This document shows positions 3,142-12,167 of a stretch of 64,000 nucleotides of DNA, piece after piece. Numbering within the stretch: the first letter of the stretch is position 1; every line of letters starts with the position of its first letter. The position numbers and the translations under genes are program-made. Under the pieces are notes generated by a model, which was given only the letters and a program-made list of their open reading frames with translations, did no database searches and was not told where the DNA came from. The DNA is from Kushneria sinocarnis (lineage in GTDB: Bacteria > Pseudomonadota > Gammaproteobacteria > Pseudomonadales > Halomonadaceae): NCBI RefSeq assembly GCF_003633775.1, contig NZ_RBIN01000004.1, forward strand, positions 62,001 through 126,000, given 5' to 3'.

Positions 3142-3357
3142 ATTGACCACCGCGCAAGTCTCCATGAAAGTCGCGCGCACTGCAATCCTTCATGAGCCAC
3201 ACCGCCCCGGCTTCAAGGCCGGGTTCAGCCGCGACCGCCGGCGCGTTCACGGCGGCTCGCGATCCGGACAAAGCGGGTGACATCGTGCATCAGGCTGACC
3301 AGGATAAGAGAGGCATGGCCGGTCACGCCGGTGCGTACACAACAAAAGGAGCCATCG

Positions 3358-5103
3358 ATGTCTGACGCCACTGCCACGGTAACGCCGCTCTCCGAAGCCG
3401 AATTCATCGAATGGGCGCAGTGCGAGCTGGCCTTCGTTTACGGAGAGCGCAGCGAGGAGATCCTCAGACGTCTGCGCCAGCTTGTAAGCCATCGGGAAGA
3501 GGAGATCGACACGCCGGCAAGACCGCTGTGGACCGAACGCAGCCAGCTTTTGATCACCTACGGCGACAGCATCCTCGAGGAGCGCGACACCCTGCCGCTG
3601 GCGGCACTGGAGCGCTTTCTGCAGGAGCGCCTGCCGGAGACCTTCAGCTCGGTCCACATCCTGCCCTTCTTTCCGTGGAGTTCGGATGACGGCTTCGCCG
3701 TGATCCACTACGGCGAGGTCGATCCCAAACTGGGCGACTGGCCGCAGATTCGCCGCGTGGCAGAAGACCACAACCTGATGGTCGATCTGGTCATCAACCA
3801 TGTCTCCCGCGAATCACTGTGGTTCGCCGACTACATTGCCGGCTCGCGGCCCGGACGCGACTACTTCATCGAGCTGGACCCGAACACCGATGTCTCCGGC
3901 GTGACCCGCCCCCGCAACACGCCGCTGCTGGTACCGGTCTCGACCCGGCGCGGCACCCGCCATGTCTGGGCGACCTTCTCCGAGGATCAGATCGACCTCA
4001 ACTACGCCAATCCGGACGTGCTGCTCGAAATGATTGGGGTGATGCTGCACTACCTCAGTCAGGGCGCCCGCCTGATCCGGCTTGATGCCATCGCCTATCT
4101 CTGGAAGGAGCTCGGCACCCGCTGCATTCACCTGCCGCAGACGCATGCCATCGTGCGGCTGCTGCGCGCCATCATGGAGTACGTGGCCCCCGGTGCCCTG
4201 CTGATCACCGAAACCAACGTGCCCCACCACGAGAACCTGAGCTACTTCGGCGACGGCGACGAGGCGCATGTCATCTACCAGTTCACCCTGCCGCCGCTGC
4301 TGCTGCACACGCTCACCTCGGGCAGCGCCGAGACGCTGACCGAATGGGCCGCCACCCTGCCCCCGCTGGCATCGGGCTGCACCTATCTCAACTTCACCGC
4401 CAGCCATGACGGCGTCGGCGTGCGGGCGCTGGAGGGGCTGCTGCCCGAGCACGAGATCGGCGCCCTGCTGGAGCTGATGCAGCGCTTCGGCGGTTTCGTC
4501 AGCATGAAGACCGACGCCGACGGCAACGACTCGCCCTACGAGATCAACATCTCCTGGTTCGATGCGCTCAAGGGCACCCGGCGCGGTGCCGACCCCTGGC
4601 AGATCGCCCGCTTCATCTGCTCGCAGACCATCATGCTGGGGCTGCAGGGCATCCCGGCGGTCTACATCCACAGCCTGCTGGCCACGCTCAACGACCACGA
4701 AGGCGTGACCCGCACCGGCCATCTGCGCGCCATCAACCGCAAGCGCTGGCAGCGCGCCAACCTGGAGCAGCTGCTGGACTCCTACAGCACGCCCACCCGG
4801 ATCGTCTTCGATGCCCTGGTCGGCCGGCTGCGCATCCGCCGCGAGGAGCCCTGCTTCCACCCGGAGGCCCCCCAGAAGATCCTCCACCTGGGGCCGCAGT
4901 TCTTCGCCTTCGTGCGCGGGCCGCTGGCCGATGGCCGGCGACTGCTGGCACTGCACAACGTCACCGACCAGCCCCAGCCGGTCCACCTGCCGGAAGCCTT
5001 CAGGGAGGAAAAATGGCGCGACATCATCGGCAACACCTCGCTCGACGTGGAGACGGTGGTGCTGGCGCCCTACCGCAGCGCCTGGCTGGTCAATGACGGG
5101 TAA
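3358..5103 (+). CDS. GH13_18 glucosylglycerate phosphorylase (sucrose-phosphorylase family)
   Basis: A 581-residue alpha-glucan-type phosphorylase of glycoside hydrolase subfamily GH13_18, expected to split glucosylglycerate with phosphate into glucose 1-phosphate and glycerate. The catalytic residues are visible: nucleophile Asp in LIRLDAIAY (about residue 242), acid/base Glu in ITETNVPH (about 283) and transition-state Asp in ASHDGVG (about 345). SMKTDADGNDSPYEIN matches the subfamily. Length fits glucosylglycerate phosphorylases (around 560) better than sucrose phosphorylases (around 490-500). The start has AAGGAG 7 bases upstream. Its placement beside gpgS and a matching phosphatase supports glucosylglycerate as substrate; sucrose or glucosylglycerol are alternatives that sequence alone cannot exclude. 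Confidence 0.8.
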   Translation: MSDATATVTPLSEAEFIEWAQCELAFVYGERSEEILRRLRQLVSHREEEIDTPARPLWTERSQLLITYGDSILEERDTLPLAALERFLQERLPETFSSVHILPFFPWSSDDGFAVIHYGEVDPKLGDWPQIRRVAEDHNLMVDLVINHVSRESLWFADYIAGSRPGRDYFIELDPNTDVSGVTRPRNTPLLVPVSTRRGTRHVWATFSEDQIDLNYANPDVLLEMIGVMLHYLSQGARLIRLDAIAYLWKELGTRCIHLPQTHAIVRLLRAIMEYVAPGALLITETNVPHHENLSYFGDGDEAHVIYQFTLPPLLLHTLTSGSAETLTEWAATLPPLASGCTYLNFTASHDGVGVRALEGLLPEHEIGALLELMQRFGGFVSMKTDADGNDSPYEINISWFDALKGTRRGADPWQIARFICSQTIMLGLQGIPAVYIHSLLATLNDHEGVTRTGHLRAINRKRWQRANLEQLLDSYSTPTRIVFDALVGRLRIRREEPCFHPEAPQKILHLGPQFFAFVRGPLADGRRLLALHNVTDQPQPVHLPEAFREEKWRDIIGNTSLDVETVVLAPYRSAWLVNDG

Positions 5104-5133
5104 GCGCCCGGCCGGGTGGTAAAGGTACGGATT

Positions 5134-5283
5134 TCGCGACTGAAGTCGCTCCTACAAAACCCACCGGGTTGCCGAGTGCAGCAGCAATGTCAGTCGCGGC
5201 CGGCCAGGCCACCACGGCCGGCAACAGGCTCCCTGTAGGAGCGACTTCGGTCGCGATTGGCCAGGATCACCACGGCCGGCAAC
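5134..5283. repeat. 150-bp direct repeat, left copy
   Basis: This 150-bp block recurs at 6387-6536 in the same orientation with substitutions but no length change. It begins with an inverted REP core (TCGCGACTGAAGTCGCTCCTAC), continues through a CCGGGTTGCCGAGT segment and a decayed REP, and ends with GATCACCACGGCCGGCAAC. The two copies bracket the REP array and the RAYT gene, giving a 1,253-bp repeat period. Confidence 0.85.
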
Positions 5284-5887
5284 CTGCACCCTGTAGGAGC
5301 GACTTCAGTCGCGATTGGCCAGGCCACTATGGCCGGCAACCTGCACCTGTAGGAGCGACTTTAGTCGCGATCGGTCAGGCCACCACGGCCGGCAACAGGC
5401 TCCCTGCAGGAGCGACTTCAGGCGCGATTGGCCAGGCCACCATGGCCGGCAACACGCTCCCTGCAGGCGCGACTTCAGGCGCGATCGGCCAGGCACACCA
5501 CGGCCGGCAACCTGCTCCCTGTAGGAGCGACTTCAGTCGCGATTGGCCAGGCCACCACGGCCGGCAACATGCTCTCTTGTAGGAGCGACTTCAGGCGCGA
5601 TCGGCCAGGCCCGCCACGGCCGGCAACACGCTCCCTGCAGGAGCGACTTCAGGCGCGATCGACCAGGCCCACCACGGCCGGCAACCTGCTCCCTGTAGGA
5701 GCGACTTCAGTCGCGATTGGCCAGGCAACCATGGCCGGCAACCTGCACCTGTAGGAGCGACTTCAGTCGCGATTGGCCAGGATCACCACGGCCGGCAACC
5801 TGCTCCCTGCAGGAGCGACTTCAGTCGCGATTGGCCAGGCCACCACGGCCGGCAACACGCTCCCTGCAGGAGCGACTTCAGTCGCGA
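5235..5887 (+). repeat. 12-unit REP array, ~58-bp period
   Basis: Twelve head-to-tail REP cores start at 5235, 5293, 5349, 5406, 5463, 5521, 5579, 5637, 5695, 5751, 5809 and 5866. Each is 22 bp: head GTAGG or GCAGG, then a hairpin such as GAGCGACTTCAGTCGCGA. Spacers of about 35 bp share TGGCCAGG, CCACGGCCGGCAAC and CTCCCT. Variants include TTCGGTC, TTTAGTC and TTCAGGC. The array fills the gap between the phosphorylase gene and the transposase gene and ends 10 bp past the transposase stop. There is no coding capacity I would support here. Confidence 0.93.
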
Positions 5888-5897
5888 AGAAGTTTGC

Positions 5898-6362
5898 TCA
5901 CAGCCATATGGCATCCCAGTGAGGGTACTGCCCGATCTCTTGCACCAGCCCTGCCCGCAGGGGGTTGGCCACAATATAACGTGCTGTCTGCTTCAGATCC
6001 CGTTCTCCGCGAATGGCCCTGTCATGATAGCCCGGCTGCCAGATGGTGCCGTGATGGCCAAGACTTTCATTCAGACTTCGGGCACTGCGCCCCTTGAATC
6101 TTCGAACAACCCCGGCCAGCTCATCCCCTTCACGAAGCTGAATCAGCCAGTGCAGATGATCGGGCATAACCACAAAACTCAGGGAAGTGACACACCTTTC
6201 TTCGTGCAGGTGCCTCATGGCATGGATGACCTGCCGAGCCTGAACCCACTCCCGCAAAAGCGGCTGCCGATCATGGATACAGGTCGTGATCAGATAATAT
6301 CCGCCAGCCAACGAAGACCGGCCGCGCCGCAGCGCCTGTTGTCCTGCATCGATTCGTTTCAT
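5898..6362 (-). CDS. REP-associated tyrosine transposase (RAYT, IS200/IS605-like Y1 fold)
   Basis: A 154-residue single-strand DNA transposase of the HUH/Y1 type. The metal-binding motif HLHW is at about residues 68-71 (within MPDHLHWL) and the catalytic Tyr is in QTARYIVANPLRAGL near residue 130, the spacing expected for RAYT proteins. GYYLITTCIHDR near residue 21 matches the family N-terminus. It is flanked by convergent REP cores, one at 5866-5887 just past the stop and one inverted at 6387-6408 just upstream of the start. This is the usual RAYT arrangement, and RAYTs are thought to mobilise such REPs. The reading frame is intact. No strong ribosome binding site is visible, so expression may be low. 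Confidence 0.9.
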   Translation of the reverse strand: MKRIDAGQQALRRGRSSLAGGYYLITTCIHDRQPLLREWVQARQVIHAMRHLHEERCVTSLSFVVMPDHLHWLIQLREGDELAGVVRRFKGRSARSLNESLGHHGTIWQPGYHDRAIRGERDLKQTARYIVANPLRAGLVQEIGQYPHWDAIWL

Positions 6363-6386
6363 GTTGATTTTATCGACGACAGGACA

Positions 6387-6568
6387 TCGCGACTGAAGTC
6401 GCTCCTACAAAACCCGCCGGGTTGCCGAGTACAGTGGCAATTTCAGGCGCGATCGGCCAGGCCACCATGGCCGGCAACAGGCTCCCTGCAGGCGCGACTT
6501 CAGTCGCGATCGGCCAGGATCACCACGGCCGGCAACACGCTCTCTTGTAGGAGCGACTTCAGTCGCGA
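6387..6568. repeat. right-flank REP cluster and right copy of the 150-bp repeat
   Basis: An inverted REP core lies at 6387-6408 and two forward cores at 6488-6509 and 6547-6568, with the same spacer family as the left array. The stretch 6387-6536 is the second copy of the 150-bp direct repeat seen at 5134. The last core ends 20 bp before the stop of gpgS. Confidence 0.9.
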
Positions 6569-6588
6569 AGGTTTTTTCGGCCAAGGCC

Positions 6589-7809
6589 TCACACTTCGCC
6601 GCGATTATCGGCTTCCACTGCCTCGTACATGCGTTCGAGCATATCCGGAAAGGCCGACTGCACCCGCCCCCAGCTGGGGATGAAGGGCTTGTCGCGCGGG
6701 CTTTCGAGAAAGGCCGTGCCCGCTTCCATGATCGTCTGCGCGAACAGCTCGACGGCCTGCTCCTCACTGTGCCGATCCACCTCGAGGCCGTTCATCATGG
6801 CGTCGTGATAGTAATTCTCGATCATGTCGAGCGCGGTGCGGTAGTAGGTGGCCTTGAGCGTACGAAAGGTCTCCTCGGAAAGCGTCACGCCCAGGGTCGC
6901 CAGCTTGCGATAGAGCGCCTTGGCGATATCGAGACTCATGCGGTAGAGCCCCGTGGAAGCATCCTCCGGCGACAGCGGCTGATGCTTGTGGTCGTAGTGA
7001 TCGGCGATATCGACCTGGCAGAGCTGCTTGAAGGAGTGGTTGCGATACACCTCGGAGAGCACGCCGATCTCCAGCCCCCAGTCGTTGGGAATGCGGATGC
7101 CGTTCAGCACATCGGTGCGCATCGCGAACTCGCCGGAGAGCGGGTAGCGATAGCTGTCGAGGTAGTTGAGGTAATCCAGCGGCCCGCAGATCTTCTTCAG
7201 CGCCCGCAGCATCGGCGTCACCATCAATCGACCGACCCGGCCGTTGAGCCGCCCCTCCGCGATCCGGGCGTAATAGCCCTTGCAGAACTGGTAGCTGAAG
7301 TGGGGATTGGCCACCGGATAGAGCAGGCGCGCCAGCAGGGTGCGGTTGTAGGTGGTGATGTCGCAGTCATGCAGCGCCACCGCCTCGGTACGCCCCGAGG
7401 CCAGCACGTAGCCCGAACAGAACCAGACATTGCGCCCCTTGCCGGCATCCTGGGGGGCCAGCCCCTCGGCCGCCAGTTCGGCATCGAGCGCCTGCAGGCG
7501 CGGGCCATCGTTCCAGAGGATGCGGTGCCGCTGCGGCAGGCGGGAGAAGAAGTCACGGGCCCGCAGGAACTGGTCGCGATCGGCCTGATCGAGCCCGATG
7601 ACCACTTCCGTGAGGTAATCGACCTGTGAGAGATGATCGACGATCTTCGTCAGCGCGGGCCCATCCAGCTCGGAATACAGCGACGGCAGCACCAGTCCCA
7701 TGGGGCGCCGCCGGCTGAAGCTCTTCAGATCCTGCTCCAGCGCCTCGCAGGGGCGGTCGGTCAGATTGTGAAAGTTGGTGATGATGCCGTTCTGGTAGAA
7801 ATCGCTCAT
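6589..7809 (-). CDS. gpgS: glucosyl-3-phosphoglycerate synthase (GT81)
   Basis: Transfers glucose from NDP-glucose to 3-phosphoglycerate, the first step of glucosylglycerate synthesis, in the cytoplasm. The 406-residue protein has the GT81 layout: an N-terminal segment with PMGLVLPSLYSEL, a metal/nucleotide region VALHDCDIT near residue 145, then FCKGYYARI, MVTPMLRAL and DYLNYLDSYRYPLSGEFA-type acceptor-site sequence. LGVTLSEET and ENYYHDAM follow in the C-terminal part. GGGAGAG upstream supports the ATG at 7809. The phosphatase that would finish the pathway lies about 830 bp upstream on the same strand and the cognate phosphorylase about 1.5 kb downstream on the other. Glucosylglycerate accumulates in some halophiles under salt stress with low nitrogen. 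Confidence 0.88.
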   Translation of the reverse strand: MSDFYQNGIITNFHNLTDRPCEALEQDLKSFSRRRPMGLVLPSLYSELDGPALTKIVDHLSQVDYLTEVVIGLDQADRDQFLRARDFFSRLPQRHRILWNDGPRLQALDAELAAEGLAPQDAGKGRNVWFCSGYVLASGRTEAVALHDCDITTYNRTLLARLLYPVANPHFSYQFCKGYYARIAEGRLNGRVGRLMVTPMLRALKKICGPLDYLNYLDSYRYPLSGEFAMRTDVLNGIRIPNDWGLEIGVLSEVYRNHSFKQLCQVDIADHYDHKHQPLSPEDASTGLYRMSLDIAKALYRKLATLGVTLSEETFRTLKATYYRTALDMIENYYHDAMMNGLEVDRHSEEQAVELFAQTIMEAGTAFLESPRDKPFIPSWGRVQSAFPDMLERMYEAVEADNRGEV

Positions 7810-8092
7810 ACCTGCTCTCCCTGAGCGGCCCCACGCCGCCCCGCAGCGGGCCTGGCGCGGGTGCCGGGTTGGGATGATGACTCGATCATCCGGTGGTTTG
7901 TCGCCTTTTCTTGTTGTCTGCAACAGACATGGCAACCCAACACGCCGGGGCCCGCGGCCGCCTCGAGACGCCAATCGGCGCAGACGTTTCCACAGGCCCC
8001 TGGACCTTTGTAGGGTTTATACAGCAGAACGGCAAGCAGGAATCCGCTGGCCGGACAGGGTCAGGCCCGCCACGGCAAGGGAGAGCACCCTG
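7810..8092. other. intergenic, upstream of gpgS
   Basis: No gene seen. The stretch should carry the gpgS promoter, but I see no convincing -35/-10 pair. A TATAAA-like box occurs on the minus strand near 8018-8023 without a good partner. Confidence 0.4.
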
Positions 8093-8592
8093 ATAGGAGC
8101 GACTTCAGTCGCGATCGGCCAGGCCCGCCACGGCAGGAAAAAGCACACTGTAGGAGCGACTTCAGTCGCGATTGGACAAGCCCGCCATGGCAAACGGGAA
8201 TACACCTGCAGCGGCAAATTCCATCGTATCTGCTTTTTCGCGGCTGAAGCCGCTCCTACAAAAAACCGCTGGATTACCGGATGCCAGAGGACATCACCTG
8301 CAACCCAACGGATTTCAGCCGCGATCAGGCAGACCCGCCACGACAGGAAAAAGCGCCCTGTAGGAGCGACTTCAGTCGCGATTGGACAAGCCCGCCATGG
8401 CAAACGGGAATACACCTGCAGCGGCAAATCCCGTTGCACTTGCTTTTTTCGCGGCTGAAGCCGCTCCTACAAAAAACCGCTGGATTACCGGATGCCAGAG
8501 GACATCACCTGCAACCCAGCGGATTTCAGCCGCGATCGGACAAGCCCGCCATGGCAAGAAAAAGCACCCTGTAGGAGCGACTTCAGTCGCGA
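8093..8592. repeat. REP cluster with a ~210-bp tandem duplication
   Basis: REP cores lie at 8093-8114, 8150-8171, 8360-8381 and 8571-8592 (forward) and at 8238-8259 and 8449-8470 (inverted, GCGGC/GCCGC stem version), with decayed cores near 8310 and 8521. The segment from 8150 is repeated from 8360 almost base for base (210-bp period), including CGGGAATACACCTGCAGCGG and GATGCCAGAGGACATCACC. The spacers (CAAGCCCGCCATGGCAA) differ from those in the 5.2-kb array. Confidence 0.9.
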
Positions 8593-8634
8593 TGGTGTCT
8601 TACTGACCCGCCCCATCGCCAGTGCACCTTCTCA

Positions 8635-9456
8635 TCACTCGTCATCAAGCCAGTGCGCCAGCCCTTCGGCCCAGCCCTGCGGCCCCTCTGCACGGGTCCG
8701 ATAGGCCCGCGACTCATCGCGCACCTCGATGGGCTGCTCATGGCGGCCACGAATGATCACGGCGGCATCCACCGTATCGAACATGGGAATATCATTGGGG
8801 CCATCGCCCAGCCCGATACTGGCCACTCCGGCCCCGTGAAGCTGCTCGAAGCGGCTGATCAGCCAGCCGCAGGCGCGCCCCTTGTTGCAGGTCTCCCCCA
8901 TCACATGATGAAAGCGCCCGCCGCGGGTCAGCTCCAGCCCGGCCCCGATCAGCTCCAGCCGGAAATGCTCCAGCGCCGATGCGCTGTCCTTCCAGACCAG
9001 CGGCTCGGAGGCCTCGCGCTGGCGCGCCCGTTCGGCTCCCGCTGCATCCAGCCCGGTCAGGCTAATGATCTCCTCGACCGTCATGTCGGCAAAGCCGCGA
9101 AAGCGCAGCGACTCGGTTTCACGCACGGCTTCCAGTACCGTCAGGATACGCTGGCGCGAGGCGCCCAGTACCACGCGTGCCCAGCCGTCATCATCGGCAG
9201 GCTCATCCCCCGCCCAGTCCGGCGGCAGATGCACACAGCCGCCATTCTCGGCAATGAACGGCGCCGTCAGCCCCAGCTCGCGATACAGTGGCCATACTTC
9301 GGCAGCGGTCTTGCTGGTATTGAAGATGACCGGCACCCTGGCGGTGGCGAGGCGTTCCAGCCACTCCCGGGCGGGCTTGTGATCATAGGTATCATGATCG
9401 AGTAACGAGCCATCCAGATCGGTAAAGATCAACAACGGTTGAGCAAGCGAAAACAT
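8635..9456 (-). CDS. HAD-IIB glucosyl/mannosyl-3-phosphoglycerate phosphatase
   Basis: Expected to remove the phosphate from glucosyl-3-phosphoglycerate, giving glucosylglycerate. The 273-residue protein belongs to the mannosyl-3-phosphoglycerate phosphatase (MpgP/YedP) group of HAD hydrolases: motif I FTDLDGSLLD at about residues 11-20, NTSKTAAEV near 46, FIAENGG near 70, and motif IV GLGDGPNDIPMF near 220. The cap domain lies at about residues 85-195. The ATG has GGGA upstream. Assignment to glucosyl- rather than mannosyl-3-phosphoglycerate rests on the adjacent gpgS and on the absence of a mannosyl-type synthase here. This family is known to accept both substrates. Confidence 0.8.
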   Translation of the reverse strand: MFSLAQPLLIFTDLDGSLLDHDTYDHKPAREWLERLATARVPVIFNTSKTAAEVWPLYRELGLTAPFIAENGGCVHLPPDWAGDEPADDDGWARVVLGASRQRILTVLEAVRETESLRFRGFADMTVEEIISLTGLDAAGAERARQREASEPLVWKDSASALEHFRLELIGAGLELTRGGRFHHVMGETCNKGRACGWLISRFEQLHGAGVASIGLGDGPNDIPMFDTVDAAVIIRGRHEQPIEVRDESRAYRTRAEGPQGWAEGLAHWLDDE

Positions 9457-9509
9457 ACCGAATTCCCGGAGAGCATGGTGATGAGATTGTCATCGGCCGC
9501 GTATTGAAA

Positions 9510-9541
9510 AACCATAGGCCGGGAGGGTAAATAATATAGCC
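9510..9541 (-). promoter_or_regulatory. possible -10 promoter region for the phosphatase gene
   Basis: On the minus strand GGCTATATTATT (around 9541-9530) lies in an AT-rich patch about 75 bases upstream of the start. It resembles a -10 box and, with C just before TATATT, a sigma-S type one. No good -35 is visible. Regulation by RpoS would suit an osmolyte gene but is only a guess. Confidence 0.3.
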
Positions 9542-9589
9542 AAAAGTATTAAATGAGTTTTAGCTAAAAAATACTATTACGGATATCAG

Positions 9590-9831
9590 CCGTCAGCCGA
9601 ATCCACCACGACAACTCGACCGTCATCCTGCAGGAGCGGCTTCAGTCGCGATCGCCCGAAATCCGCCACGACAACCCGAACGTCATCCTGCAGGAGCGGC
9701 TTCAATCGCCATCGCCCGAAATCCGCCACGACAACTCGACCGTTACCCTGCAGGAGCGACTTCAGTCGCGATCGCCCGAAATTCGCCACGACAAACCGAC
9801 CGTTACCCTGTAGGAGCGACTTCAGTCGCGA
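9590..9831 (+). repeat. four-unit REP array with exact 60-bp period
   Basis: REP cores at 9630-9651, 9690-9711, 9750-9771 and 9810-9831 are spaced exactly 60 bp apart. Shared spacers read ATCGCCCGAAATCCGCCACG and then ACAACTCGACCGT or close variants. Stem variants include GCGGC with an uncompensated AATCGC in the second unit. The array ends about 30 bp past the stop of the small gene at 9863. Confidence 0.92.
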
Positions 9832-9862
9832 TCGGGTGTTTTTCTCGCGGCCTGCCTTACAC

Positions 9863-9988
9863 TCAGCCCGGCTCGCACATGGCGGGACTGGAAGAAGAAT
9901 GATCGGAATCGTGATCGCCATCGGCAATGACAGCGACACCACCCCCAATCAAGAGATAAATCAGTACAGTAAGTCCGATTCTGGCCAT
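9863..9988 (-). CDS. micropeptide A: 41-residue single-span/secreted peptide, family unknown
   Basis: A small ORF starting MARIGLTVLIYLLIGGGVAV, with AGGGA 6-7 bases before the ATG. It has a short positively charged N-terminus, one hydrophobic segment (residues 5-21), then an acidic, Ser/His/Asp-rich tail (DGDHDSDHSSSS) and a C-terminal CEPG with a single Cys. Its partner at 10656 shares the pattern RIG-hydrophobic-GGGVA-DGD-Cys-x-Pro although the two are only moderately similar overall, which argues that both are real genes. It could be a single-pass membrane peptide or have a cleaved signal. I do not recognise the family and assign no function. Confidence 0.65.
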   Translation of the reverse strand: MARIGLTVLIYLLIGGGVAVIADGDHDSDHSSSSPAMCEPG

Positions 9989-10591
9989 GATGATCCCTGC
10001 AATACGTTAAGACGTTGCTTGTTACGAACGATTGCAGAGTCATGCATAAAAGCCTTTCAGGTTGTGCCACTTTGATGAATCATCGCCAGAAACATGAAAA
10101 CCTATCAGTGCCAGGCAGATTAAATGACTTCGCGATCAGCACTGAAAAGGGATATTTCATGAAATGAAAAAGTATCTCCATAGCAAACTTCAAAATGACT
10201 TGCTGCACGGCGCAATCGGCATATATCGGACGGCCATAACGTTACAGGGCATGTCATGCCGTGTTTGACCCCGGGCATGAAATCCTCCCCATAAGCCATC
10301 AGCCGGACTGACATCCTTTATGGCGGGTTCTGCATAACACGGCTGCCTGCAATACCTGATGACTGACAGCCCAACTTGCGCAGAGCGGGCGCTGAGGAAA
10401 ACCGCGCCATGGCTATTTCAGCACGATTCATTCATCCCGCATCACTGCATGGCGAGGCCCTGCAGCATGCTCATGATGCTGTGGGCAGCACCGGGCAGAG
10501 AGGGATCAGGTATCAGTCAGCAGGTGGGGAAACGAAGCCATCGCTGAACTCACGAAAGCCAGCCAGGCCATATCGAGGGAGAGCGAGTAAC
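9989..10591. other. intergenic between the two micropeptide genes
   Basis: Beyond the leader of micropeptide A (which includes TTCGTAACAAGCAACG, similar to the leader of the second peptide) I see no supported gene, repeat or RNA. Several frames of 60-70 codons exist but lack ribosome binding sites and recognisable content. Confidence 0.4.
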
Positions 10592-10623
10592 CAATAAAAA
10601 ACGGCACCCGCGAGGGGTGCCGT
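10592..10623 (-). terminator. intrinsic terminator after micropeptide B
   Basis: On the minus strand AACGGCACCC and GGGTGCCGTT form a strong stem with a CTCGC-type loop, followed by TTTTTTATTGG. It lies about 35 bases past the stop at 10656 and shows that the short gene is an independent transcription unit. Confidence 0.85.
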
Positions 10624-10655
10624 TATATCGAGCTGATGGTAAAGCCGGAAGTCTG

Positions 10656-10778
10656 TCAGACGGGCTGGCAGATCTCCGTGCTGTCCGAGTCAAAATCGAA
10701 GGCATCACCATCCGTGGCTGCTGCAACGCCTCCTCCGGTCAGAAGAAGCACCAGCGCGCCAATTCCAATCCTGTACAT
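10656..10778 (-). CDS. micropeptide B: 40-residue paralogue of the peptide at 9863
   Basis: A small ORF starting MYRIGIGALVLLLTGGGVAA, with GGGAG 6 bases before the ATG. Like its neighbour it has RIG at residues 3-5, one hydrophobic segment ending GGGVA, DGD at residues 23-25, an Asp/Ser-rich acidic tail (DFDSDS) and a C-terminal single Cys followed by Gln-Pro-Val. It has its own strong terminator. Residues AAATDG could form a signal-peptidase site, leaving an acidic peptide of about 18 residues. The paralogy, the good ribosome binding sites and the terminator together support a real gene. The function is unknown. Confidence 0.7.
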   Translation of the reverse strand: MYRIGIGALVLLLTGGGVAAATDGDAFDFDSDSTEICQPV

Positions 10779-11078
10779 GAAATCTCCCTGCGTTGCGTCT
10801 CGTCTTGATCGAACGCTTACAGGGTCTTACAAAAATTAAACGTCCACTATGCAATTTTGATCAGCAATCACAAAAATGGTCAAAATGAAGCATGATCGTT
10901 TTAAGTGATGGTGCTTTTGACCATTCTTTGAAACGAGCTGTTTTAAGATATCAAAAACCTGACGTTTTAATTATTCATTACTGACCCAATGCCATCTCTT
11001 TCAAACAATGAAAGCAGCCTCATTGGCACGGACCAGCACAGTTTTCTGATCGTATCTCACCCGCCTCTGTCATCCCGG
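10779..11078. other. AT-rich intergenic region
   Basis: No gene seen. It should contain the promoter of micropeptide B on the minus strand; a weak candidate is TTGCAT with TGTAAG 17 bases later (around 10855-10825). No clear terminator for the capsule operon ending at 11079 is visible. Confidence 0.35.
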
Positions 11079-12167
11079 CTACTTGAGCCAGCCGGCCCCG
11101 GCTGTCCAGCCTGGCAGCAACAGCAGCAGATTCAGCGCTACCAGCCCCCCGGCGGCGCCCCAGCGATAGCAGCCCGGAAGGCGCATCAGCCCATCGTGCA
11201 CCGCCAGCAGCATGAACGGGATGCCCACCAGATAGCGCGGCAGCGACTCCAGCCCGGTCGCCATGGGAATCAGCAGCATCACCCCGGCCGCCATGCCCTC
11301 ACCGATGTGCCCGCGCAGCAGCAGTGACAGGGCAAGGCCCAGTCCGAGTGCTCCGGCCAGCACCTCGTAGAGGGCGATTTCGCCGCTGTGCTGCCAGGGC
11401 GTAGCCAGCCAGAAGTGCACCCCGCTGGCCAGCGTTTCGATCGGCCACTGCAGGGTACGCCCCCAGGCCGCCTGCACATGCATGAAGGCCAGCGGATCGC
11501 CGACATGCCCCCAGAGGTAGAGCATGTACGCCACCAGCCCCAGCGGGCAGAGCAGCAGCGCCCCCAGCACCGGGAAGCGCCAGATCGAACGATGCTGATG
11601 GCGACACTGCCACAGCCACTGCGCCAGCAGCCCCGCCCCCCAGGCAACACCGACGATACGCGTGGCGGAGAGCAGCAGCCCCAGCCCGCCGGCGGTGAAA
11701 TGCCGTTCACGGCGCCAGGCCAGGGCACTGCCCAGCAACAGCAGCGCGAACAGCGCCTCGGAATAGCCCGATGCCAGATAGAAGCTATAGGGGCCGAGGC
11801 AGAACAGCACCGCCACCAGCCAGGGCGAGACCCGCGAGCGGGTCAGGCGCAGATAGTGCAGCAGCAGCAGTAGCGCTCCCAGCGCCGCCGCATTGGCCAC
11901 CAGCCACAGCGAGTGGAAGGCGGAAAGGCCGGTCAGCATACTCAGGCCGTGGGCCAGCAGCGGATAGAGCGGAAAGTACGCCCAGTTGCTGCGGCCATCG
12001 GCGAGCACCTCATCCGGGGTGAAATACCCCTGCCGGACGATGCCGATATACCAGCGGCAGTCCCACTGGCAGAACGCGCTTGCGGGATCGCCCTGCCACC
12101 ACCCGCTCAGCAGGGCGAACAGAACACGGGAGAAGACAAAAAGCAGCAGTACGGCAGTTACAGGCAC
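11079..12167 (-). CDS. GT-C type membrane glycosyltransferase (PIG-V-like mannosyltransferase family)
   Basis: A 362-residue polytopic protein with about eight to ten hydrophobic segments. The N-terminal loop carries WDCRWYIGIVRQGY (about residues 34-47), which resembles the WD-x-x-WY motif of the PIG-V/mannosyltransferase 2 family, and YFPLYPLL follows near residue 64. FYLASGYSEALF near residue 127 is also typical of the family. Such enzymes use polyprenyl-phosphate-linked sugars on the outer face of the membrane. It lies 6 bases downstream of manC, so GDP-mannose supply and a mannosyl transfer are a reasonable pairing. It is the last gene of the capsule operon. Family-level call only. Confidence 0.6.
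   Translation of the reverse strand: MPVTAVLLLFVFSRVLFALLSGWWQGDPASAFCQWDCRWYIGIVRQGYFTPDEVLADGRSNWAYFPLYPLLAHGLSMLTGLSAFHSLWLVANAAALGALLLLLHYLRLTRSRVSPWLVAVLFCLGPYSFYLASGYSEALFALLLLGSALAWRRERHFTAGGLGLLLSATRIVGVAWGAGLLAQWLWQCRHQHRSIWRFPVLGALLLCPLGLVAYMLYLWGHVGDPLAFMHVQAAWGRTLQWPIETLASGVHFWLATPWQHSGEIALYEVLAGALGLGLALSLLLRGHIGEGMAAGVMLLIPMATGLESLPRYLVGIPFMLLAVHDGLMRLPGCYRWGAAGGLVALNLLLLLPGWTAGAGWLK

Follow-up and report, generated by a model that had tools for sequence, protein, structure and literature searches.

Do two neighbouring ORFs of some 40 codons encode proteins, and if so, to what family do they belong and how might they act? The initial annotation of the window (the whole 64,000 nt stretch of Kushneria sinocarnis DNA analysed here) had pointed to twin minus-strand ORFs of 41 and 40 codons, and both were present as described, with 667 nt between them:

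9863..9988, minus strand: P1, gene for a 41 aa microprotein (ORF MARIGLTVLIYLLIGGGVAVIADGDHDSDHSSSSPAMCEPG), with an orthologue in the sister species G125 and belonging to a set of 14 members
10656..10778, minus strand: P2, gene for a 40 aa microprotein and paralogue of P1 (ORF MYRIGIGALVLLLTGGGVAAATDGDAFDFDSDSTEICQPV), whose G125 orthologue is 92 % identical

A search of the whole 3.5 Mb window genome (G000) with P2 at E≤10 returned P2 itself and P1 alone, the latter with an E value of 1.4e-5. Kinship between the leaders of the two genes had also been claimed, and was confirmed by local alignment of the following 80 nt regions:

9989..10068, minus strand: P1 leader region, 80 nt, a homologue of the P2 leader region (local alignment score above those of all 2000 shuffles)
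10779..10858, minus strand: P2 leader region, 80 nt, homologous to that of P1 (same alignment)

In each species the alignment outscored every one of 2000 dinucleotide shuffles, with scores of 40 in the window genome and 50 in G125, a sister species of the same genus, against shuffle maxima of 34 and 43, respectively. The resemblance of P1 to P2 is above chance, and both the peptides and their leaders are homologous.

Homologues were sought across several genome collections. Both genes were identified in G125 at the corresponding position and in unchanged order; P1 displays 75 % amino acid identity alongside the 92 % of P2. In six of the other eight genomes of the genus, the top match to a profile built from six sequences (A1) was a longer protein, though only at E 1e-3 to 1e-2. 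Direct search located this protein in seven of the ten genomes, all but G000, G125 and G119. These longer counterparts comprise 60–84 aa, start MSQATIALLIILFLG and occupy the position of P1 and P2 in seven further species of the genus. Three further copies (C12a, C12b and C15) were present in Phytohalomonas tamaricis R4HLG17 (G169). A search of 275 genomes of the family Halomonadaceae with a further profile, A3, gave 14 members of 37–84 aa in 10 genomes, namely P1 and P2 in the window genome and G125, one longer counterpart in each of seven genus species and the three Phytohalomonas copies. As 11 of the 14 members are included in A3, this count describes the set and does not prove it. Relatives, which the initial annotation had proposed to seek in Halomonadaceae, do not extend across the 275 family genomes but are confined to the genus and Phytohalomonas. 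An eleventh family genome, G096, was dropped as a candidate, its match (E 0.0038) lying inside an 834 aa frame on first reading.

Wider searches, in overlapping genome samples, indicated a narrow distribution. Among 390 genomes of the order, A3 matched 13 at E≤0.01, comprising four known member genomes and nine others that were rejected as relatives; six of the nine held one FliL-like protein and three were taken as chance. Two of 369 class genomes matched at E≤0.001, both already known, and a contig collection of 84,980 species searched with A1 contained two loci, both from Phytohalomonas. No relative was identified among phages when two Phytohalomonas peptides served as tblastn queries (best E 3, to Erwinia and Pantoea phage ORFs, some of them named spanin), in plasmids with one Phytohalomonas peptide, or, as a confirmed match, in IMG/VR with A1, the G124 protein and A4. 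Sequences in the PDB gave nothing credible with A3 (best E 1.2). Five of the 14 members were scanned against family libraries, with no match at E≤1 in Pfam and none accepted from PHROGs (best E 0.43) or NCBIfam, where the strongest match (E 0.014) was that of the G124 protein to a sortase-sorting domain and fell short of the model's cut-off. A limited literature search on small proteins and ORFs of Kushneria, Halomonas and Halomonadaceae, and on prophage single-transmembrane proteins with a C-terminal cysteine, did not find the family described. P1 and P2 belong to a narrow, so far unnamed family of a well-known kind, the bacterial membrane microproteins; the family itself is new.

The inclusion of the longer proteins was favoured by gene position and by some profile comparisons but not by others, so that they are probable members. 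Two disjoint alignments of seven members each matched in hhalign with an E value of 4e-7 and a probability of 92.7 %. Longer members scored 31.9–40.9 against the short-member profile, whilst 25 unrelated N-terminal membrane segments reached at most 19.4. These controls were what remained of 26 scored segments after one proved to be a member, and seven GVA-bearing sequences (six members and one unrelated protein) had been excluded beforehand. In the opposite direction, P1-type and Phytohalomonas members scored 24.8–34.1 against the longer-member profile, and the P2 sequences, at 17.1 and 17.7, fell under the best unrelated control (19.9). The reverse genome search with this profile was weak, recovering a member as the best match in two of three short-member genomes (E 0.03 and 0.33) and missing both copies in the window genome. 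Short and longer members share their gene position, approximately 260–410 nt upstream of the same phosphatase gene and on the same strand, in all nine genus genomes that carry a member. In the window this marker is:

8635..9456, minus strand: mannosyl/glucosyl-3-phosphoglycerate phosphatase-like gene, the downstream neighbour and position marker of the family (above the TIGR01486 cut-off)

Translation of both ORFs, as claimed from the sequence, was supported by codon-level comparison with the sister species. The Nei–Gojobori method gave dN 0.166 and dS 1.190 for P1 and dN 0.046 and dS 0.330 for P2, that is, a dN/dS of 0.14 in each case. The 21 pairs of longer orthologues ranged from 0.046 to 0.155, and among the three Phytohalomonas copies a usable dS was obtained from one of the three pairs alone. 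Amino acid changes were fewer than expected under random placement of the observed substitutions in all seven pairs tested of the 23 orthologous pairs, with P values of 0.028 for P2, 0.0002 for P1 and 0.00065 or less, down to 0.00005, for five longer pairs. Over the opening 28 codons of the longer proteins, identity at the three codon positions was 0.92, 0.98 and 0.77. Homologues and codon-level constraint, the absence of which had been named as grounds for abandoning the family, were both detected, and P1 and P2 appear to be translated and under purifying selection.

Alignment of all 14 members revealed a short list of invariant features: M1, L9, L12, G15, V18, A19 and one near-terminal Cys. 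Each member contains exactly one Cys, followed by one to three residues to the end, and a hydrophobic N-terminal segment bearing Gly15 and Ala19, with a mean hydropathy of 1.9–2.5 over the best 19 residues. Gly-xxx-Ala spacing is common among packing helices. Of the motifs that had been read from the twin peptides, the single near-terminal Cys therefore extends to the whole family, but RIG and DGD do not. The tails differ between sub-groups: those of P1 and P2 are acidic, those of the Phytohalomonas copies are rich in His and Ser, and those of the longer proteins are rich in His and Gly. All of them are acidic or neutral, with no more than two basic residues. The distance from Ala19 to the Cys ranges from approximately 16 to 63 residues; in the seven longer orthologues the terminal PDPQQCS is invariant whilst total length varies. 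AlphaFold2 applied to P1 with 11 alignment rows gave a modest model (mean pLDDT 65.5) with a single helix at residues 2–23 and a tail without secondary structure. Together with the hydropathy, this helix points to membrane insertion. These features support the proposal of a new small-protein family that combines a probable membrane segment with one Cys conserved close to the C-terminus.

Whether such peptides are anchored or released bears directly on their function, as both had been suggested. The idea of an acidic extracellular peptide in a salt-adapted host was not supported, since the acidic tail is confined to P1 and P2 and the tails of their relatives differ in both composition and length. 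If P1 and P2 were signal-peptide precursors, a cut after VIA (P1) or AAA (P2) would release an acidic one-Cys peptide of approximately 19 residues to the periplasm or medium, and the window copies do possess Arg3, a hydrophobic stretch and small residues ahead of the tail that might suit such processing. However, neither the Phytohalomonas copies (AVLT, AILT) nor the longer proteins (VAWWN) retain small-x-small residues at this place; such processing is possible for P1 and P2 alone, and secretion is fairly improbable. As neither the acidic tail nor the signal-peptidase-like residues are conserved, anchoring fits better, and the best reading is a single-pass inner-membrane microprotein, as far as hydropathy and a modest model allow. 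For P1 and P2, Arg3 and the acidic tail fairly favour an N-in/C-out topology. The longer members have no charge on the N-terminal side and one Arg after the helix, so they may or may not share this orientation. Tails that bind metal or protons at the membrane surface through His, Asp and Cys would account for the five to seven His residues of the longer tails and the two in P1 and the Phytohalomonas copies, but P2 tails have none and His spacing is not conserved between sub-groups, leaving this a distinctly remote prospect.

Examination of the flanking non-coding sequence identified predicted hairpins in both leaders and a terminator-like structure after P2:

9995..10039, minus strand: predicted P1 leader hairpin, its 3' arm GCAGGG comprising most of the Shine–Dalgarno AGGGA (z −4.63 against 500 shuffles)
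10786..10824, minus strand: predicted P2 leader hairpin, its 3' arm GCAGGG adjoining GGAG (z −2.65)
10600..10624, minus strand: terminator-like hairpin with a T run after P2 (found by scan; recurs in G125)

A good Shine–Dalgarno had been attributed to each gene. P2 has GGAG, but the AGGGA of P1 is only fair, and a search for at least four consensus letters found no Shine–Dalgarno at P1 or C12a. The 55 nt G125 leaders gave z values of −3.00 (P1) and −2.58 (P2) and those of the seven longer members −0.46 to −2.85, whilst the Phytohalomonas leaders gave −1.65 for C12a and, beside phage-type genes, +2.08 for C12b and +0.19 for C15. An 11-pair leader helix was paired in 91 % of cells, compared with at most 52 % when slid; leader covariation was not above shuffles, 142 of 500 of which reached it. 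The pairing probability of the P2 GGAG (0.60 in the window and 0.72 in G125) was ordinary against 56 control leaders, which had a median of 0.60 and included nine above 0.9. A stable hairpin in the P1 and P2 leaders is therefore well supported, but masking of the start site by that hairpin is not.

The leader is not common to all members: that of G124, the one longer member tested, was unrelated (P 0.89–0.996), and the kinship of the C12a leader was marginal (P 0.002 with G000 P1 and 0.044 with G125 P1). The longer members have a leader that is as conserved as their coding part, most of all at −40 to −21 (0.99). A block of approximately 100 nt in these genes, from about −120 to −20 relative to the start codon (L051, L052 and L085–L089), is more conserved than the tail-coding part and is probably a promoter plus leader element. 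The terminator ascribed to P2 was confirmed as a hairpin that recurs in G125 with changed loop letters; the scan by itself provides no evidence, because it found one site where region shuffles averaged 1.9. Inspection by eye placed terminator-like hairpins after P2 in both species, after G125 P1 and after the seven longer members, with REP-like repeats downstream of P1 in the window genome instead. One promoter-like site was found upstream of P2 (10883 to 10854, minus strand), where shuffles averaged 1.8.

The Phytohalomonas copies lie in different surroundings. Downstream of C15, and sharing its strand, come genes for exonuclease VIII-like and RecT-like proteins, a DNA methyltransferase and an integrase, whilst a phage-type repressor precedes it, an arrangement that, judged from gene content, marks a prophage early operon. 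This operon opens with three consecutive very small hydrophobic ORFs (L006, about 1371–1685 of G169:C15), the family member being the middle one; the outer two gave no PHROG match at E≤0.01. C12b shares four bases with an ORF that matches, in its C-terminal part, function-unknown phage families (best E 3.5e-10), whilst inspection recognised no phage-type neighbour beside C12a. SieB and Kil are small early-operon membrane proteins of lambdoid phages, and the position of C15 ahead of exonuclease and RecT-like genes on their strand is similar to theirs. Unlike these proteins, the five family members scanned had no PHROG match better than the E of 0.43 given above.

In the genus, members sit beside a glucosylglycerate-type cluster, which in the window extends over 3277–9456 and comprises a phosphorylase-like gene on the plus strand and synthase-like and phosphatase-like genes on the minus strand. 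The phosphorylase was best matched to sucrose phosphorylase, below the cut-off, and the synthase-like gene is as follows:

6589..7974, minus strand: glucosyl-3-phosphoglycerate synthase-like gene, its true start probably inside the frame (NF040724, E 7.5e-108, below the cut-off)

With the window phosphatase as query, one best match was obtained in each of 11 genomes. The homologue in G122 (L085, G122:C1, 334359–335167) matched in two overlapping pieces, a possible frameshift or sequencing error. The phosphatase gene occurs without a microprotein in G119 and at that place in Phytohalomonas. As synteny within one genus reflects orthology by descent, no functional link with the glucosylglycerate-type genes is demonstrated, and the location is a lead only; a search for literature linking glucosylglycerate and Kushneria found none. 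Clusters of REP-like palindromes (core GTAGGAGCGACTTCAGTCGCGATCG) were also observed at about 5160–5900, 6380–6550, 8000–8600 and 9580–9840, and the ORF at 5898–6362 (minus strand) presumably encodes a REP-associated tyrosine transposase.

Three further explanations were weighed. That P1 and P2 are non-coding, conserved DNA or RNA open by chance, is scarcely credible: the conservation of the longer members' leader to the level of their coding part would suit it, but every one of the 23 orthologous pairs has a dN/dS far below 1, and changes are in excess at third codon positions. Somewhat less remote, though unlikely, is a role tied to the adjacent glucosylglycerate-type genes in osmotic adaptation, for example on an osmolyte transporter or osmosensor. 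Placement upstream of the phosphatase and synthase is constant in nine species, even though G124 and the window type have different genes beyond the other end; such synteny is, however, expected by descent within one genus, the Phytohalomonas copies lie elsewhere, G119 has the phosphatase gene alone, and terminator-like hairpins part the genes in most members. The family might alternatively descend from phages, as membrane-active or type I toxin-like peptides that the host has domesticated and that leader structure, and perhaps an antisense RNA, keep silent. Type I toxins such as Hok, Ldr and TisB are small, with one hydrophobic helix and a structured leader, and occur in prophages and in tandem copies; their marks are an antisense RNA gene that adjoins or overlaps that of the toxin, and toxicity on overexpression. 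The prophage copy, the copy overlapping a phage-type ORF, the tandem duplication, the leader hairpins and the narrow range are all consistent with this origin. In contrast to such toxins, the family has hardly any basic residues in its acidic or neutral tails and is conserved in a fixed place, under purifying selection, in nine species. No antisense gene was seen and no opposite-strand promoter-like site was found in a crude scan of 9450–11080, and Rfam gave no match better than E 0.94. We consider the toxin explanation improbable.

Comparison with characterized membrane proteins helped to delimit the family. Proteins with an LLIGGGVAAF-type N-terminal membrane segment, which we take to be FliL-like, match the family profile at E 3e-5 to 4e-3, but the likeness is confined to the helix. 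FliL has a large domain after its membrane segment; the FliL-like frames, of 169–204 aa, continue into a large additional domain and lack a single Cys close to the end, whereas family members are of 37–84 aa. An LLIGGGVA-type helix arises in FliL-like proteins too, which counts against the helix as a mark of the family. A likeness in mode is offered by MgrB, a small regulator of the sensor kinase PhoQ, which has two essential periplasmic cysteines, C28 and C39 (PMC10576120). MgrB has a known partner and these two cysteines, whilst family members have one, close to the terminus of a tail that varies in length. The likeness is one of mode and not of membership, a separation drawn from the Cys count and from library scans of five members (Pfam and NCBIfam). 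By analogy, the best reading is that the family may act in an MgrB-type manner through helix packing and one thiol.

Taken together, we propose, with roughly even confidence, that P1 and P2 are tandem-paralogue inner-membrane microproteins that combine helix docking with a periplasmic near-terminal thiol able to form a disulfide with itself or with an envelope partner. Each would have a single transmembrane helix at the N-terminus, on which small residues form a conserved face (Gly15-xxx-Ala19), followed by a flexible polar tail carrying the single Cys near its end. The helix would dock on itself or on an envelope protein such as a sensor, transporter or protease, and the tail would present the thiol on the periplasmic side, where a disulfide could link it to a second copy or to the partner. 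As the least certain step, and a mere suggestion, the leader hairpin may control translation. A more speculative and improbable extension is a thiol-on-a-tether device common to host and phage, consisting of a GxxxA helix, a spacer of free length and a fixed near-terminal Cys, with reversible disulfides that would report or lock a state; host copies would hold back translation by the leader hairpin, whilst phage copies without it would seize the same partner early in infection.

Genes this short easily escape annotation, and P1 and P2, although picked by eye, hold up in cross-species codon tests. The near-terminal Cys on a variable spacer offers a concrete and cheap biochemical test of the family, and the prophage relative raises a testable question about the relationship between host and phage.
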